Positions 19,948 to 40,393 of a stretch of 40,393 bases of DNA are shown here, in pieces. The first letter of the stretch is position 1. Every line of letters begins with the position of its first letter. Both the position numbers and the translations under genes were made by a program. Location of the stretch: NCBI RefSeq assembly GCF_016786325.1, contig NZ_JADWYU010000098.1, positions 1 to 40,393 on the forward strand, written 5' to 3'. Under the pieces are notes generated by a model, which was not told the DNA's origin, did not search any database, and saw nothing but the letters and a program-made list of their open reading frames with translations. This DNA comes from Frankia nepalensis (GTDB lineage Bacteria > Actinomycetota > Actinomycetes > Frankiales > Frankiaceae).

Positions 19948-21768
19948 TCAGGAACAGTCGACGTTGTACGGGCCGCTGCCAGCGTTCGTGACGACGTTGG
20001 AACACGAGACGACGTTGTTGGTGTCGTCGGGCTTGTGGATATTGACGCCATAGCCGGATCCGCCCACGTTGAGGGTGTTGCCGGAGATCACGTTCCCGGT
20101 TCCCCAGCCGTCGACCACGACATGTGTCTGGATCCCATCCAGCGGACTGTTCACGCCGGAGTTCTTCTCGATCCGCCAGCCGTTGCCCTTCAGGTCGATC
20201 CACGAGTCGGCGTAGTTGTCCCCGGTGATCCCTGACCCGTCGAAGCTGTTACCGGCGACGACGCCGCCGGTGGTTCCTTCCTTGATGTCCACGCCCTCGG
20301 CGGTGAACCCGCTCAGGGTGTTGCCGATGATCTGGTTGCGGTCGGAGTTGTCGACTCGGCCGCCGGAGAAGCGGTCCCAGTTCGACTCGGCCGTGCCGAC
20401 GTAGATCGCCTCGCCGTAGCCCTCGTTGGTCCGCCCGGTGCCGTTGACGGTGACCCCCGCCACCAGGTTGTCGCTGGAGAAGTTGCGCAGGTGAACCGCC
20501 TCGTGCCCGACCTGCGTCACGGTCAGCTTGTGAATCACGGCATGGTTGGTCTTGTCGGCCATCAGACCCTTTTCACCGTTGCGGATCGTGAACCCCTCGA
20601 GCCGCCAGTAGTTGGCGCCGTCCAGGTGGAACACGTAGCCGTTGTCGACGTCTCCGCCGTCGATGACGGCGCCCCGCGAGCCGCGTACGGTGACCGGAGC
20701 CGCGGCGGTGCCAGGCTTGTTGCCGACGAAGTTTCCCTCGTAGACGCCGTCGGCGAGCTGGATCAGGTCGCCGGGCCGGGCAGCGGACAGCGCGGCGGAC
20801 AGTTCGTCGCTGGTGGACACGTTGATGGTGCGAAGCGGCGCCGGCGCCGGTGGGACCGAGGTCACGGCGGCCGGCGGCGGCGCGACGGCCGGCGCCTGGC
20901 TGGGGACCGTCCCGCCAGTACCCTCGCCGACCCTGAACTCGGCCTCGATCACGTCGGGGTTGCCAGAGCCGTCCGAGCCACCGGTGCCGCTGGTGGGCTC
21001 GGCGCCGTCGGAGGCCGCGTCGTCGTCCACCCGCACCCGGGCGGACAGCACATGATCGCCGTCCGAGAGCTGGTCCAGCCGGACGGCGAACGGCGCGTCC
21101 CGATCGCTGAGCACGGTGTCGCCGTCGAGGGAGAACCGGACCCGTTCGACGCCATCCAGCGACGCCGTGCCGGCCACCAGGGACACCTCGACGCCGACGG
21201 CTACCGTCATGCCGTCCAGGGGCCGATCCCCTACCACCAGGGTCCACTTGCCGAGCGGCTTCGAGCTCGCGGTCGCGGCCGGTTGCGTCGGCGCGCCGGA
21301 CGCCAGGCCGCCGTCCGCACCGGCGCCGACGGCCGGGTCGTCGTCCTCACCGCCCCCAAAGACCAGCACGGCGAGGAGCGCGACGACCAGCAGCACCGCG
21401 ACCGCCGCCGCGGCCTTGCGGGGGCGGCTGTCGAGCAGCGCGGCGAGCCGCGCGCCAAGGCCCCGCCATCCGTCGCGGCCGCCCGGGCGGCGCGGCTCGC
21501 TGGTCGGGTCGGGCGCCGGACCCGCGGGGTCGTCCGACACGGGGTCGTCCGACACGGGGTCGGGCGCCGTGACCGTCGTCGTCGCCCCGGCGCCAGCGGC
21601 GGAGACCGCGGCCGGCGCGGCGGAAACCGGCTGCCGGCCGGCCCCGGCTGTCCGGCGCGGAATCGGTGTCGTTGGCGAGTCTGGTGTCGCCGGCGGCGAG
21701 TCGTGCCCGCGGCGCTGGTCTGGCTCGAGTTCCCCGGACGCGCGATCGTCGGGCGAGGTGAACGCCAT
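19948..21768 (-). CDS. Membrane-anchored right-handed beta-helix protein
   Basis: A 606-residue protein in four parts. Residues 1-118 are a cytoplasmic disordered segment rich in Pro/Asp/Ser, including a DPVSD-DPVSD duplication. Residues 119-138 form one membrane helix. About 170-300 is an Ig-like beta domain (VRFSLDGDTVLSDRDAPFAV, DGDHVLSARVRVDDD). From about 325 to the end is a right-handed parallel beta-helix, with the pectate-lyase-like entry STSDELSAALSAARPGDLIQ, DGVYEGNF and repeated coils such as NQIIGNTLSGFTAEGVDI and GNVISGNTLNVGGSGYGVNI. It ends with two cysteines (VVSCSN, NVDCS). Such proteins bind or cleave extracellular polysaccharide. ATG 21768 with a GGGAG upstream is chosen over a longer open frame. 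Enzyme activity cannot be assigned. Confidence 0.85.
   Translation of the reverse strand: MAFTSPDDRASGELEPDQRRGHDSPPATPDSPTTPIPRRTAGAGRQPVSAAPAAVSAAGAGATTTVTAPDPVSDDPVSDDPAGPAPDPTSEPRRPGGRDGWRGLGARLAALLDSRPRKAAAAVAVLLVVALLAVLVFGGGEDDDPAVGAGADGGLASGAPTQPAATASSKPLGKWTLVVGDRPLDGMTVAVGVEVSLVAGTASLDGVERVRFSLDGDTVLSDRDAPFAVRLDQLSDGDHVLSARVRVDDDAASDGAEPTSGTGGSDGSGNPDVIEAEFRVGEGTGGTVPSQAPAVAPPPAAVTSVPPAPAPLRTINVSTSDELSAALSAARPGDLIQLADGVYEGNFVGNKPGTAAAPVTVRGSRGAVIDGGDVDNGYVFHLDGANYWRLEGFTIRNGEKGLMADKTNHAVIHKLTVTQVGHEAVHLRNFSSDNLVAGVTVNGTGRTNEGYGEAIYVGTAESNWDRFSGGRVDNSDRNQIIGNTLSGFTAEGVDIKEGTTGGVVAGNSFDGSGITGDNYADSWIDLKGNGWRIEKNSGVNSPLDGIQTHVVVDGWGTGNVISGNTLNVGGSGYGVNIHKPDDTNNVVSCSNVVTNAGSGPYNVDCS
21526..21555. 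repeat. 15-base tandem repeat inside the beta-helix gene
   Basis: GGGGTCGTCCGACAC occurs twice in tandem (21526-21540, 21541-21555). It encodes the in-frame duplication PVSDD-PVSDD in the disordered cytoplasmic segment, a recent slippage product with no frame effect. Confidence 0.8.
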
Positions 21769-22385
21769 GTGCGATGTACTCCCGGGAGACACGAGCCGGT
21801 ACGGCAGGACACCGGGGTGCGCCGCTCGAGGTCCGGCGCCGTGCCCGGGAAAGCCGGTCGGCGCCGCCCGCCAGTGACAACTCGGGGCCAGCTCCGAGCG
21901 TAGTCGCCGGTCGTCCGCCGCCTTCCGCCGCCCGCGTGACAAACGGCACAGTCGCGCCGGGTAAACCCCGAGGATCCTGGCTGTGACATTTCCCGGCCAG
22001 GTGCCGTCCAGTTCCCGGCCAGGTGCCGTCCAAGTAGCCGAGGTAGTCACCATGGACGCGGCGCTGGAACAGCCACAGGCGGTGGGGTGCCGCGGTGGTG
22101 AAGCCGGTCGAGGACACGGTCGGCCAGGTCGGCCGGCCAGTCGCGTGGCAGGTCGAACACCTGCGTCCGCCGGTCGATGGTCATCGCGCCCGTCACCACC
22201 GCGCCCGCGCGCTCGACCAACGCCGAATACACGATCACACGTCGTACACGGCGAGCGCGGACTCCGCTCTGGCCAATCTCGTCGTGTCCGGGTGGCCACG
22301 CAGCTGAATGGCGCCTCTGGGAACGCCGGGCGGCCGCGGGATGCGGACGTGATGGCCGCGTGGGCGAAGAGTTTCCGCTGATCGG
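21769..22385. other. 617-base intergenic region, possible mobile-element scar
   Basis: No intact gene is recognised. A leftward ORF at 22047-22238 (63 residues, containing TIDRRTQVFDLPRDWPADL and RVLDRLHHRG) looks more protein-like than its surroundings but has no start signal and no family I can name. A 20-base direct repeat lies at 21991-22032. Together these could be remains of an insertion sequence; this is speculative. The region must also hold the promoter of the beta-helix gene. Confidence 0.35.
21991..22032. repeat. 20-base direct repeat pair
   Basis: TCCCGGCCAGGTGCCGTCCA occurs at 21991-22010 and again at 22013-22032, spaced by two bases (period 22). The period is about two helical turns, so it could be a pair of protein sites or a terminal-repeat remnant. 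Confidence 0.6.
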
Positions 22386-35908: not shown

Positions 35909-36367
35909 TCAGGCGCTGGCCAGTTCGGTGTTCGCGCGCTCTGTGACCAGTGCCAACACGCGGCCCGCGATCGCCAGGTCGTCGGCCGGGATACCGGCGT
36001 AGAGCCGGGCGGAGATCTGGGCGGTCTCCGTGGTGGTGCTCTCGTAAAGCTCCCGCCCGGCGTCGGTGAGCCGGAGCCGGGACGTCGTCGCCGGGTCCTC
36101 CTCCAGCAGCTTCGCGGCTGTCAGCTCCTCGATGACGCCGCGCACGACCGACTCGTCGGTCTTCAGCGAGCCGGCGACGTCGGCGACGAGCTCGTCACGG
36201 CCGATGGACTCGCCCGCGGCCACGACGGCCCGCAGCGTCACACTCTGGTGGAACGTGGCGCCGTGGCGGTCCAGCACGCCCTCCAGCAGGGCACGCCCGG
36301 CGAAGTGCGCCAGGGCGATGACCCGGCCATTGACCGTGGGATTGACCGTGGACGCGATGGTGGTCAT
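35909..36367 (-). CDS. MarR-like winged-helix protein (second gene of pair)
   Basis: A 152-residue protein with a winged-helix layout: HQSVTLRAVVAAGESIGRDELVADVAG, then the recognition-like helix TDESVVRGVIEELTAAKLLEE, the wing RLRLTDAGRELYEST, and a C-terminal dimer helix. It resembles MarR-family regulators but with a weaker match than its neighbour. Its ATG overlaps the stop of the upstream MarR gene by four bases (ATGA, 36364-36367) and has GAGGGAG before it, so the two are one operon with coupled translation. A heterodimer or a paralog pair tuned to the same ligand is possible. No target gene besides their own promoter is evident. Confidence 0.8.
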   Translation of the reverse strand: MTTIASTVNPTVNGRVIALAHFAGRALLEGVLDRHGATFHQSVTLRAVVAAGESIGRDELVADVAGSLKTDESVVRGVIEELTAAKLLEEDPATTSRLRLTDAGRELYESTTTETAQISARLYAGIPADDLAIAGRVLALVTERANTELASA

Positions 36368-36861
36368 GAAGACTCCCTCTTGTTGTCGGTGTGCTTGTTC
36401 TCGGTGCGCGGGTCGAGAGGCACGTCGAGCAGGGCCGCCAGCTCGCGGGTGAACTGTCGGGTGCGCGGGCTGTCCTGTCCCCCGAGCGGCTCCAGCAACT
36501 GGTCCAGCAGTCCCTGGACCACGTTGATCGCGCGGTGCGTGACGTCGCGCCCCTGCTCGGTGAGCGACAGCCGCACGGCGCGCGGGTCGTTCGGGTCCCG
36601 GGTGCGGGCGACGAGTCCGGCGGCTTCCAGGGCGCGGGCGAGCTTGGAGACGTACAGCGGCTCGAGCCCCGTGTGGTCGGCGAGCTGGCGCTGGCTGGGC
36701 CGCAGCCCGGAGCGCCGCATGCCGTACAGCGAGGCCATCAGCGCGTACTGGGCGTGGGTCAGGCCCAGCGGCGCGACCGCCCGGTCGACGGCTACCCGCC
36801 ACTTCATCGACAGCCGCCAGACCAGGAACCCCGCCGTGGCGCTCTCCGCCGCTGAACTCAC
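36364..36861 (-). CDS. MarR-family transcriptional regulator (first gene of pair)
   Basis: A 165-residue MarR regulator: GFLVWRLSMKWRVAVDRAVAPLGLTHAQYALM (in parts), the helix-turn-helix PSQRQLADHTGLEPLYVSKLARALEAAGLV, and the wing RTRDPNDPRAVRLSLTEQGRD. The start is uncertain among three in-frame codons: ATG 36891, ATG 36876 and GTG 36861. I prefer GTG 36861 because TACTGT six bases before it suits a leaderless promoter, and the inverted repeat over the two ATGs would then lie in the promoter as an autoregulatory operator. Neither ATG has a Shine-Dalgarno. The operon continues into the overlapping winged-helix gene. Such regulators answer phenolic or oxidant ligands. Confidence 0.88.
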   Translation of the reverse strand: MSSAAESATAGFLVWRLSMKWRVAVDRAVAPLGLTHAQYALMASLYGMRRSGLRPSQRQLADHTGLEPLYVSKLARALEAAGLVARTRDPNDPRAVRLSLTEQGRDVTHRAINVVQGLLDQLLEPLGGQDSPRTRQFTRELAALLDVPLDPRTENKHTDNKRESS

Positions 36862-36870
36862 TCCAATACA

Positions 36871-36900
36871 GTACATGGCTACTATGTACATGGCTACTAT
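36871..36900 (-). promoter_or_regulatory. Perfect 15-bp tandem repeat containing an inverted repeat at the MarR promoter
   Basis: GTACATGGCTACTAT occurs twice without gap (36871-36885, 36886-36900). The junction creates GTACAT-N7-ATGTAC (36871-36889), a MarR-type operator geometry. Each copy also contains, leftward, an in-frame ATG, so the duplication added a start codon and a second operator half. Confidence 0.6.
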
Positions 36901-37085: not shown

Positions 37086-39302
37086 ATGGGTCAGCTGCCG
37101 CCTGGGGTGGAGCCCCTGGACGAGCACGATCCGGACGTGCTTGGCCCGTACCAGGTACTCGGCCGGCTCGGCGACGGCGGGATGGGCAGCGTCTATCTGG
37201 CGCGCCACGGCGGCACCGGGCCGTTCGTCGCCATCAAGGTCATCCGCCCCGACCTGGCGCGCATCGACCAGTTCCGCGAGCGGTTCCAGCGCGAGGCCAG
37301 CGCCGCGCAGCGGGTCGCCCGCTCGGCGACCGCGGCGGTCATCGACGTGAACACCACCGGCAGCCGGCCGTACCTCGTCACCGAGTACATCGAGGGGCCG
37401 ACGCTCGAGGCGCGCATCCACACGCGCGGCCCGCTGTCCGTCTCCGAGCTCGAGTGGCTCGCGACCGCCGTCGCCACGGCGCTGCGCGCCATCCACGCCG
37501 CCGGCGTCGTCCACCGCGACCTCAAGCCCTCCAACATCCTGCTCTCGCCCTTCGGCGCCAGGGTCATCGACTTCGGAATCTCCCGGGCGCTGGACGCGAC
37601 CACCATGTTCACCGAGGGGACCATCGGCACGCCCTCCTTCATGGCCCCCGAACAGGCCATGGGCCAAACGGTCACCGAGGCCGCCGACATCCACGCCTGG
37701 GGCGCCGTCCTCGCCTACGCCGCCGCCGGCCGCCCGCCCTTCTCCGGCGACTCGCTGCCCGGTGTCATGCTCAACGTCGCCACCGCCCCGCCCGACCTGA
37801 GCGGCCTGCCCGCCGCGTTGCACCCCCTGGTCGTCCGCGCCATGGCCAAGGACGCCGCCGAGCGGCCCACCGCCGCCGAACTGCTCGGCCTCCTCCACCA
37901 CGCCGGCACCCTCGTGGCCCCGGCGGCGGGCGGACCGGGCTCCGCGCCGGCTGAGTTCCCAGCCGGCTCCAGCATCCGTTCGCCAGCGCTCCCCTCCTCG
38001 TCCGAGGACCTCGGCCCGACGCCGCATTCCCTCGACAACGCCACCGTCGCCTTCGAACCCCCGCCCGCGGCGACTCCCCTTCCGGCTTCGAGCTCTCCGA
38101 CGCCCGCGGCGACCGGCACCGGGCCTGCGGCGGCGGCGCACAGCGCCGCCCCGTCGAGCAGCGAACCGGCGCGGCCAACCCTTGTCCTGCGCCGCCCGCG
38201 GCGGCGACGGCGGACCGCCGCCATCGCCGCGGCACTCGCGGTCGCGGCCGTCGCCGCGGTCACGGCCGCCGGCCTGGCCCTGAGCCCCGGCGGAGACGGC
38301 GTCGCCAGCGTTTCCGCCACGTCCACCGGCGCGCCGGTCACGGCCGCGCCCCTGCCCGCCGGCGCCGGCCAGCGGCTTACCGGGCCGGGCGACCCCGTTC
38401 GGTCGGTGGCGTTCTCCCCGGACGGGCACACGCTGGCCGCCGGCGCCGCCGACCACCGGATCTACCTGTGGGACGTCACCACGCCGACGAGCCCCACCGC
38501 CTTCGGCCAGCCACTCACCGGCCCCGGTGAATGGGTGTCGTCGGTGGCCTTCTCGCCCGACGGGCACACGCTCGCCGCCGGCAGTGACGACCGCCGGGTC
38601 TACCTGTGGGACGTCACCACGCCGGCCAGCCCCACCGCGCTCGGCCAGCCGCTGACCGAGCCCGGCGACTGGGTGCGGACGGTCGCCTTCTCGCCCGACG
38701 GGCACACGCTCGCCGCCGGCAGCGGCGACGGCAAGGTCTACCTGTGGGATGTCACCACGCCGGCCAGCCCCACCGCGCTCGGCCAGCCACTCGACGGCTA
38801 CGGCAACTCGGTGCGGTCGGTGGCGTTCTCCCCGGACGGCCGCCTCCTCGCCGTCGGCGGATACCACGACGACGTCGCCCTGTGGGATGTCACCCGGCCG
38901 GCCGCTCCCGCTCCCCTCGGCTCGCGGCTCACCGGACCTGGCGACTCCGTCCTGTCGGTCGGGTTCTCCCCGGACAGCCACGTCCTCGCCGCCAGCAGCG
39001 CCGACGGCAGGATCTACCTGTGGGACGTCACCCAGCCGGGCCGTCCGGCCCCCCTCGGCCAGCCGCTGGCCGGTCCCGGTGGCCAGGCGCAGTCCGTGGC
39101 GTTCTCCCCGGACGGCCGGGCGCTGGCCGCCGCGAGCGACGACCACGGCATCTACCTGTGGAATGTCAGCCGTCCTGACACTCCCACCCAGGTCGGCCAG
39201 CCCCTCACCGGGCCCGGCGATGTCGTGACCGCGGTCGCTTTCTCCCCGGACGGTGGCTCCTTCGCCGCGGGCAGCGAGGACCACGCCGTCTACCTCTGGT
39301 AA
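37086..39302 (+). CDS. Membrane Ser/Thr protein kinase with seven WD40 repeats
   Basis: A 738-residue receptor-like kinase. The kinase domain spans about 20-275: glycine loop LGDGGMGSV, Lys51 (VAIKVI), HRDLKPSN with Asp145, DFG at 162-164 and APEQ near 188, all intact, so it should be active; HRD marks an RD kinase needing activation-loop phosphorylation (TMFTEGTIGTPSF). A Pro/Ala/Ser linker follows, then RRPRRRRR and one membrane helix (about 376-398). The extracellular part is seven WD40-like blades (431-738), period 46 residues, each with VAFSPDG and ending in YLWDV; the last ends exactly at YLW with no tail. The propeller may sense a cell-wall or protein ligand. ATG 37086 follows AGGGGG. 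Confidence 0.94.
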   Translation: MGQLPPGVEPLDEHDPDVLGPYQVLGRLGDGGMGSVYLARHGGTGPFVAIKVIRPDLARIDQFRERFQREASAAQRVARSATAAVIDVNTTGSRPYLVTEYIEGPTLEARIHTRGPLSVSELEWLATAVATALRAIHAAGVVHRDLKPSNILLSPFGARVIDFGISRALDATTMFTEGTIGTPSFMAPEQAMGQTVTEAADIHAWGAVLAYAAAGRPPFSGDSLPGVMLNVATAPPDLSGLPAALHPLVVRAMAKDAAERPTAAELLGLLHHAGTLVAPAAGGPGSAPAEFPAGSSIRSPALPSSSEDLGPTPHSLDNATVAFEPPPAATPLPASSSPTPAATGTGPAAAAHSAAPSSSEPARPTLVLRRPRRRRRTAAIAAALAVAAVAAVTAAGLALSPGGDGVASVSATSTGAPVTAAPLPAGAGQRLTGPGDPVRSVAFSPDGHTLAAGAADHRIYLWDVTTPTSPTAFGQPLTGPGEWVSSVAFSPDGHTLAAGSDDRRVYLWDVTTPASPTALGQPLTEPGDWVRTVAFSPDGHTLAAGSGDGKVYLWDVTTPASPTALGQPLDGYGNSVRSVAFSPDGRLLAVGGYHDDVALWDVTRPAAPAPLGSRLTGPGDSVLSVGFSPDSHVLAASSADGRIYLWDVTQPGRPAPLGQPLAGPGGQAQSVAFSPDGRALAAASDDHGIYLWNVSRPDTPTQVGQPLTGPGDVVTAVAFSPDGGSFAAGSEDHAVYLW
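38376..39299 (+). repeat. Seven WD40 repeats, period 138 bp
   Basis: Each unit runs from LTGPG through VAFSPDG to YLWDV and a linker ending GQP, 46 codons per unit. Units 2 and 3 are the most alike (VTTPASPTALGQP in both). Unit 4 diverges most (YHDDVALWDV). The set closes a standard seven-bladed propeller. Confidence 0.85.
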
Positions 39303-39390: not shown

Positions 39391-40393
39391 CTACTTCATC
39401 TTCCACAGGCGTACGGAGCCGTCGTCGGAACCGGTGATCAGGGTGTCTTCGTTCGACGAGAACTCCCAGTCCCGCACGGTGCCCGTGTGGCCCGCGAGAG
39501 GCCGGCTGGAAGTCGGGCTGCCGGGTCCGCTCAGGTCCCACCACCGCAGCGTGTCGTCGCCCAGCTGGACGGCCAGGACCTCGCCGTCGGCGGAGAACTC
39601 CCAGCCCCGCACGGTGCCGTCGAGCCCGGGAAGAGGCCTGGGAGGGCCGGAGCCGCTCAGGTCCCACACCAGCCCCCCGCCGTCGGCCGGTTCCCCACCC
39701 TCGTCGTCCAGCCTGACGGCCAGGACCTCGCCGTCGGCGGAGAACTCCCAGTCCCACACGGTGTCGTCGAGCCCGGGAAGGGGCCCGCGCAGGACGGGAA
39801 CGCCAGAACCACGCAGGTCCCACACGAACGCGCCACCGTCGTCCAGCCTGCCAGCCAGGACCTGGCCGTCGGCGGAGAACTCCCAGTCCTCCACGGTGCC
39901 GTCGAGCCCGGGAAGGGGCCCGCGCAGGACGGGAACGCCAGAACCACGCAGGTCCCACACCAACGCACCGCCGTCGGCCAGCCTGACGGCCATCGCCTGG
40001 CCGTCGGCGGAGAACTTCCAGTCCCAGACGGTGCCGTCGAGCCCGGAAAGGAGCCTGGGAGGGCCGGAGCCGCTCAGGTCCCACACCAGCGTCTCGCCAT
40101 TGGCGGGCGTGACGGCCATGACCTCGCCGTCGGCGGAGAACTCGAAATTCTGCACGGCGCCGTCAAGTCCGGGAAGCGGCTCGCGCAGGACCGGACCGCC
40201 AGAACCACGCAGGTCCCACACCAGCACCCCGCCGTCATCCAGCGTGACGGCCATGACCTCGCCGCCCGCGAAGAACACCAGATCCCGCACGGCGCCGTCG
40301 AGCCCGGGAAGCGGCCCGCGCAGGACCGGACCGCCAGAACCACGCAGGTCCCACACCAGCACCCCGCCGTCATCCAGCGTGACGGCCATGACC
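39391..40393 (-). CDS. WD40-repeat protein, partial (N-terminus beyond the window)
   Basis: The C-terminal 333 residues of a leftward gene whose start lies outside the window. The visible part is only WD40-like blades of about 45 residues: FSADGEVMAVTLDDGGVLVWDLRGSG and variants, eight WD-type strands, ending in GSDDGSVRLWKMK. Blades are unusually alike, and some share more than 70 identical bases, so the array has been amplified recently. The chemistry differs from the kinase propeller next door (WDLRGSG rather than YLWDV), so the two are not simple duplicates. The missing N-terminus might be an effector or ATPase module (NACHT, TIR or caspase-like), as is frequent for such proteins in actinobacteria and cyanobacteria; that cannot be seen here. 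Confidence 0.85.
   Translation of the reverse strand, partial: VMAVTLDDGGVLVWDLRGSGGPVLRGPLPGLDGAVRDLVFFAGGEVMAVTLDDGGVLVWDLRGSGGPVLREPLPGLDGAVQNFEFSADGEVMAVTPANGETLVWDLSGSGPPRLLSGLDGTVWDWKFSADGQAMAVRLADGGALVWDLRGSGVPVLRGPLPGLDGTVEDWEFSADGQVLAGRLDDGGAFVWDLRGSGVPVLRGPLPGLDDTVWDWEFSADGEVLAVRLDDEGGEPADGGGLVWDLSGSGPPRPLPGLDGTVRGWEFSADGEVLAVQLGDDTLRWWDLSGPGSPTSSRPLAGHTGTVRDWEFSSNEDTLITGSDDGSVRLWKMK
39391..40393 (-). repeat. Near-identical WD40 blade array, period 135 bp
   Basis: The 77 bases 40182-40258 are identical to 40317-40393 (offset 135, cut by the window edge). About 60 bases around 39764-39823 recur at an offset of 135 near 39899-39958. One blade is shortened by three codons and another lengthened by four, showing the array is still changing. 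Confidence 0.8.

Follow-up and report, generated by a model that had tools for sequence, protein, structure and literature searches.

A conserved 15-bp tandem repeat as the candidate promoter/operator of a two-gene MarR operon in Frankia nepalensis

The question raised by this locus is whether a perfect tandem repeat directly upstream of a marR gene is a new mutation or a regulatory element. The window, as the whole analysed stretch of 40,393 nucleotides from Frankia nepalensis is called here, contains the 15-bp unit GTACATGGCTACTAT twice in tandem without mismatch, and the features around it are collected in Table 1. An earlier note had described it as a fresh perfect duplication that builds an operator and duplicates the start codon of a MarR gene. 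The exact doubling is there, but the left edge given for it, 36861, takes in 10 bases that do not belong to the repeat. The gene directly downstream is indeed a marR, its product scoring 37.1 bits against PF01047 with a gathering cut-off of 24.6. The G+C content of the array is 40% versus 72.6% for the window. Perfect tandem repeats with periods of 12-30 occur three times in the window (starts 274, 21525 and 36871) and occurred once in total in 40 dinucleotide-preserving shuffles, so that the window's repeats are above chance and the one at 36871 is not the sole example. Further tandem repeats with 100% match were seen at 21525-21562 (period 15, 2.5 copies) and 21990-22032 (period 22, 2.0 copies).

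Table 1. Features of the marR locus in window coordinates.
Feature	Position	Strand	Remark
Second gene, 152 aa	35909..36367	(-)	ATGA overlap with marR; predicted MarR fold
marR, 165 aa	36364..36861	(-)	
marR start codon GTG	36859..36861	(-)	6 nt past the -10-like hexamer; mRNA putatively leaderless
-10-like hexamer TACTGT	36868..36873	(-)	fits TANNNT
Repeat copy 2, nearer the gene	36871..36885	(-)	ATAGTAGCCATGTAC on the minus strand
Palindrome GTACAT-N7-ATGTAC of the earlier note	36871..36889	.	exact in the window
Proposed 19-bp operator dyad CATGTACA-TAG-TAGCCATG, CATG-N11-CATG	36874..36892	.	pairs 5/8 in the window
Repeat copy 1, farther from the gene	36886..36900	(-)	ATAGTAGCCATGTAC on the minus strand
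-35 position TAGCCA	36891..36896	(-)	spaced 17 nt from the -10; resembles the Streptomyces -35 motif weakly
Ser/Thr kinase-WD40 gene	37086-39302	(+)	

The age of the repeat was investigated in 112 loci, comprising the best 80 of 228 relatives from a scan of genome contigs, seven loci of the host family, 24 class loci and the window. The class search covered 393 genomes with 10 candidates scored per genome, 31 of which had a match and 30 of which yielded loci; contig-scan and class-search loci may overlap in species. With at least 20 of 38 consensus matches as the criterion for register, a homologous block was found upstream of marR in 111 of the 112 loci, the window included, giving 92 distinct rows. 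L045 fell outside the register and L033 showed one clear unit. The two copies are identical in 20 loci and share at least 12 of their 15 bases in 90/111, agreement being lower than 12/15 in the seven loci of the family f19. The block is distributed over the family handles f1, f18 and f19 and named Streptomycetaceae, and the window's 30-mer was recovered unchanged in 18 of the best 80 of 228. Copy number varies slightly, with three perfect units upstream of marR at L022 and a weaker third at L085; copy counts that take in weak matches add a third unit at L046 and two extra at L086, each with 5 mismatches. The three-unit array of L022 is an instance of natural copy-number variation. Judged from this conservation, the block being in 111/112 loci and the identical 30-mer in 18/80 relatives, the doubling is old but not shared by every locus, and the comparison of copy number in related strains that the earlier note had proposed speaks against a fresh event. 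That the repeat is a recent, strain-specific and neutral tandem duplication that fell within a promoter by chance agrees with the identity of the copies in the window, but is extremely improbable given the same 30-mer and block elsewhere.

The earlier note had also placed a candidate ATG in each copy. Both exist, on the minus strand at 36891-36889 and 36876-36874, and both are in frame with MarR in the window, where the open frame traverses the two units. Across loci, however, just 15/111 have the ATG of copy 2 in the marR frame, and in 109/111 a spacing of 6-8 nt separates the -10-like hexamer from the first in-frame start (7 nt in 89, 6 in 15 and 8 in 5), the other two being at 4 or 5 nt. 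The ATG within the repeat was rejected as the marR start by frame and spacing across loci, and with it the proposed duplication of the start codon. The -10-like hexamer is TACTGT in 52 of 106 loci and the -35 position TAGCCA in 89 and TTGCCG in 7, in counts that leave out L028, L030, L045, L055, L064 and L124 and in which L046 is misplaced. TAGCCA makes a poor -35, matching NTGACC weakly, and a simple sigma-70 promoter scan found no site. For S. coelicolor, the available part of one report gives TANNNT as the -10 motif and 21% of primary start sites as leaderless (PMC4895711). The marR mRNA of the window is probably leaderless from the GTG, as the fixed distance of the start from its TANNNT box matches what a leaderless transcript predicts. 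The regulatory placing proposed in the earlier note agrees with these data, the block being conserved where a promoter/operator is expected.

Two axes of symmetry centred 3 bp apart compete for the role of operator within the array, namely GTACAT-N7-ATGTAC, which the earlier note had proposed, and the dyad CATG-N11-CATG formed between the two units. The former is present as described, with 7/7 tested pairs in the window versus 5/8 for the inter-unit dyad, is exact in 42/111 loci and gave the best paired axis (0.681) in a first scan of 79 distinct Streptomyces-type rows, followed by the inter-unit axis on TAG (0.636). When the class and family loci were added the order flipped to 0.669 for the inter-unit axis versus 0.637. 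Over 92 distinct rows the paired fraction is 0.817 for GTACAT-N7-ATGTAC versus 0.735 for the inter-unit dyad, on different pair sets, yet the pairing of the former is no better than its column composition (reached by 1000/1000 shuffles), zero double changes were found, none of the seven f19 loci keeps it, and the overlap of one arm with the -10-like hexamer could by itself account for that arm's conservation. That GTACAT-N7-ATGTAC is the operator is accordingly improbable, although the palindrome itself stands.

The inter-unit dyad pairs 8/8 in 16/111 loci, including 7/7 of the f19 loci, in which the direct repeat is missing and the dyad is kept. It showed 22 double changes in the 92 distinct rows versus a shuffle mean of 16.2, a number reached by 0/1000 shuffles; the shuffles take no account of relatedness, and what is counted are sequences rather than events. 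With the f19 loci removed there is no covariation (12 double changes versus a mean of 11.3, reached by 440/1000). Among loci other than f19, the three free bases of copy 1, when changed, have become the partner required for pairing in the inter-unit dyad in 45/49, 12/14 and 30/31 sequences. The inter-unit dyad is moderately preferred as the candidate operator, mainly owing to one divergent family, f19.

A third arrangement would have two MarR dimers, one on each 15-bp unit, at SlyA-like sites centred on each CATG (TAGCCATGKMYA) and cooperating across the promoter, with the direct repeat as the functional form. It fits the 90 loci in which the copies are at least 12/15 alike, the 97-99% conservation of TAGCCATG of copy 1 in 80 rows, the occurrence of a complete TAGCCATGGCTA in some loci, and the top rank of SlyA among the NCBIfam models and solved structures matched by the window MarR; SAV4189, in the available text of its report, binds three palindromes at its own promoter (PMC6036246). 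The inner pair of the right half of copy 2, at the -10-like hexamer, nevertheless fails in 87/87 distinct rows. Double changes number 6 versus 5.0 in shuffles (reached by 333/1000), with a paired fraction slightly above shuffles (28/1000), and the f19 loci lack the direct repeat yet have the inter-unit dyad. We regard this arrangement as rather unlikely. The main reading, with the inter-unit dyad as operator, and the two rival operator readings are mutually exclusive.

A search that allowed up to 3 mismatches located the paired site a single time in the host genome and in one place in each of six relatives' genomes (five Streptomyces and one Kitasatospora), the three-copy locus L022 giving two overlapping matches; diverged or single sites would be missed by this search. 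TAGTAGCCATG alone was found 7 times in the host genome, two of them inside the array, compared with 2 times for a reversed control. The five sites outside the array have no second unit in the 70 bases compared, and three of them share near-identical surroundings. A wider regulon was rejected on the single paired site in the host genome. One paired site per searched genome points to autoregulation rather than to a regulon, and autoregulation of marR is plausible on these counts.

The second gene overlaps marR by ATGA, at 36367 in the window; the same overlap was seen in 80 of 81 loci, counted without L097 and L100-L104 and with starts accepted from 15 nt ahead of the marR stop onward. It was present in 84/88 loci, or 83/87 with L097 and L098 taken as the same place, and in 23/24 class loci, the match being weak in f19. 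Three or four of the seven host-family loci had no match to it (L100, L103 and L104; L099 stops at a contig end). Searches of the window protein and of two or three relatives gave no Pfam family above its cut-off, the MarR model included. An AlphaFold2 model from an alignment of 48 of the 82 second-gene proteins had a pLDDT of 93.6 and a pTM of 0.81, and among the 50 Foldseek matches listed nearly all were of MarR type, with E from 3.4e-7 and TM-scores of about 0.5-0.7. The second gene is thus predicted to encode a MarR-fold protein.

Most of the 60 rows listed align with the window at the DNA level between about 35904 and about 36902 and lose similarity near both edges; for most listed Streptomyces loci the similarity stops within about 30 bases beyond repeat copy 1. 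On sequence grounds, the putative promoter/operator, marR and the ATGA-coupled gene are one conserved unit of about 1 kb. In 80 sequences (79 loci and the window) the upstream flanks fall into 32 groups, the largest of 35, and the downstream flanks into 26, the largest of 44, indicating that part of the family was inherited in place and part moved.

The host family was represented in the comparison by 35 genomes of 7 genera. The best relative from the host's own genus is 74% identical, versus 93% for the two best Streptomyces among the best 80 of 228 relatives. The 31 class genomes with a match divide into 17 of f18, presumably Streptomycetaceae, 8 of f19 and 6 of the host family f1. In a tree of 87 rows, from which L024, sharing its genome with L023, and L097, at the position of L098, were omitted and whose bootstrap had not settled, the window falls with support 100/95 inside a set of 34 rows made up of Streptomycetaceae and one Pseudonocardiaceae row. 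The closest copies come from a family other than the host's, and the window gene is placed inside the Streptomycetaceae, so that horizontal transfer of the unit into the host from a Streptomycetaceae-type donor is likely. Both flanking genes have relatives in 8/8 genomes of the genus, the host's own included, which argues against contamination. An empty site was not found in the sister genomes G002 and G004, in which best matches to the flanking genes, taken on their own, are far apart. A second transfer is likely for L037 of Solihabitans fulvus (Pseudonocardiaceae), which carries the unit within the Streptomycetaceae set.

Upstream of the unit in the window is a Ser/Thr kinase-WD40 gene. At E <= 1e-60 the host genome contains 31 matches to the kinase part of its product, a large paralogous set; its WD40 part is encoded by a long array of repeats of about 138 bp at 38362-39282, and another long array of repeats of about 135 bp at 39702-40393 resembles WD40 in a minus-strand frame. 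In Streptomyces a pirin gene can stand beside marR, and a pirin match lies within the locus stretch in 44/111 loci, among them L053:1894-2853 (Pfam was run on one). Among the best 80 of 228 there were 36 such matches, 32 of them near full length, upstream and on the opposite strand; the remainder are on the same strand (L060 and L083), partial at the locus edge (L073) or weak (L048). The window differs in having the kinase-WD40 gene there and no pirin, with three pirin matches elsewhere in the host genome. The available part of a paper covering pirin genes mentions no MarR neighbour (PMC13118837).

Our best explanation, which we think reasonably probable, is that the repeat serves as promoter and operator for a two-gene MarR operon under autoregulation, with a leaderless transcript and a coupled second gene, in a unit of about 1 kb from a Streptomycetaceae-type donor. 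In the mechanism that we infer, a MarR dimer would most likely occupy the dyad CATG-N11-CATG that both units form between the -35 and the -10, and once bound would exclude RNA polymerase until released by a ligand. Transcription would begin at or beside the GTG to give a leaderless mRNA, and the second MarR-fold protein would be translated by coupling to marR. The whole unit would have come to the host from such a donor. More speculative, and on balance doubtful, is the idea of a self-contained, horizontally moving unit of a MarR repressor, one private operator per genome and a coupled MarR-fold protein that belongs to no known Pfam family; the latter would form a heterodimer with the repressor or counteract it as an anti-repressor and would not bind DNA independently. 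What was presumed to be a mutation becomes a defined regulatory element, in which about 40 bp hold the -35 position, the candidate operator, a -10-like box and the start codon in an arrangement that is constant under three family handles, and the coupled MarR-fold pair offers a tractable test of joint working. Among the matches listed in literature with partial full-text coverage on MarR, SlyA, pirin or the letters of the site, a description of this operon was not found.

The closest known system is SAV4189, a MarR regulator of Streptomyces avermitilis, for which the available text of PMC6036246 describes a two-gene operon and self-repression through palindromes overlapping the -35 and -10, as is proposed here by inference. 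SAV4189 differs in its consensus TTGCCYKHRSCAA, in a second gene for an efflux protein rather than a MarR-fold protein, and in a start site 22 nt upstream of the start codon, where the spacing in the window suggests a leaderless mRNA (PMC6036246, same text). By eye, the operator TTGCCYKHRSCAA in that text is not in the array, which reads TAGCCATGTAC and has no TTGCC with a CAA partner. By NCBIfam and by PDB sequence the window MarR matches the SlyA/RovA group best, scoring 43 bits against the SlyA model NF002926, far below its curated cut-off of 120. The SlyA site is TTAGCAAGCTAA, to which TAGCCATGGCTA looks similar by eye; the present operon differs in having its paired site in one place per searched genome.
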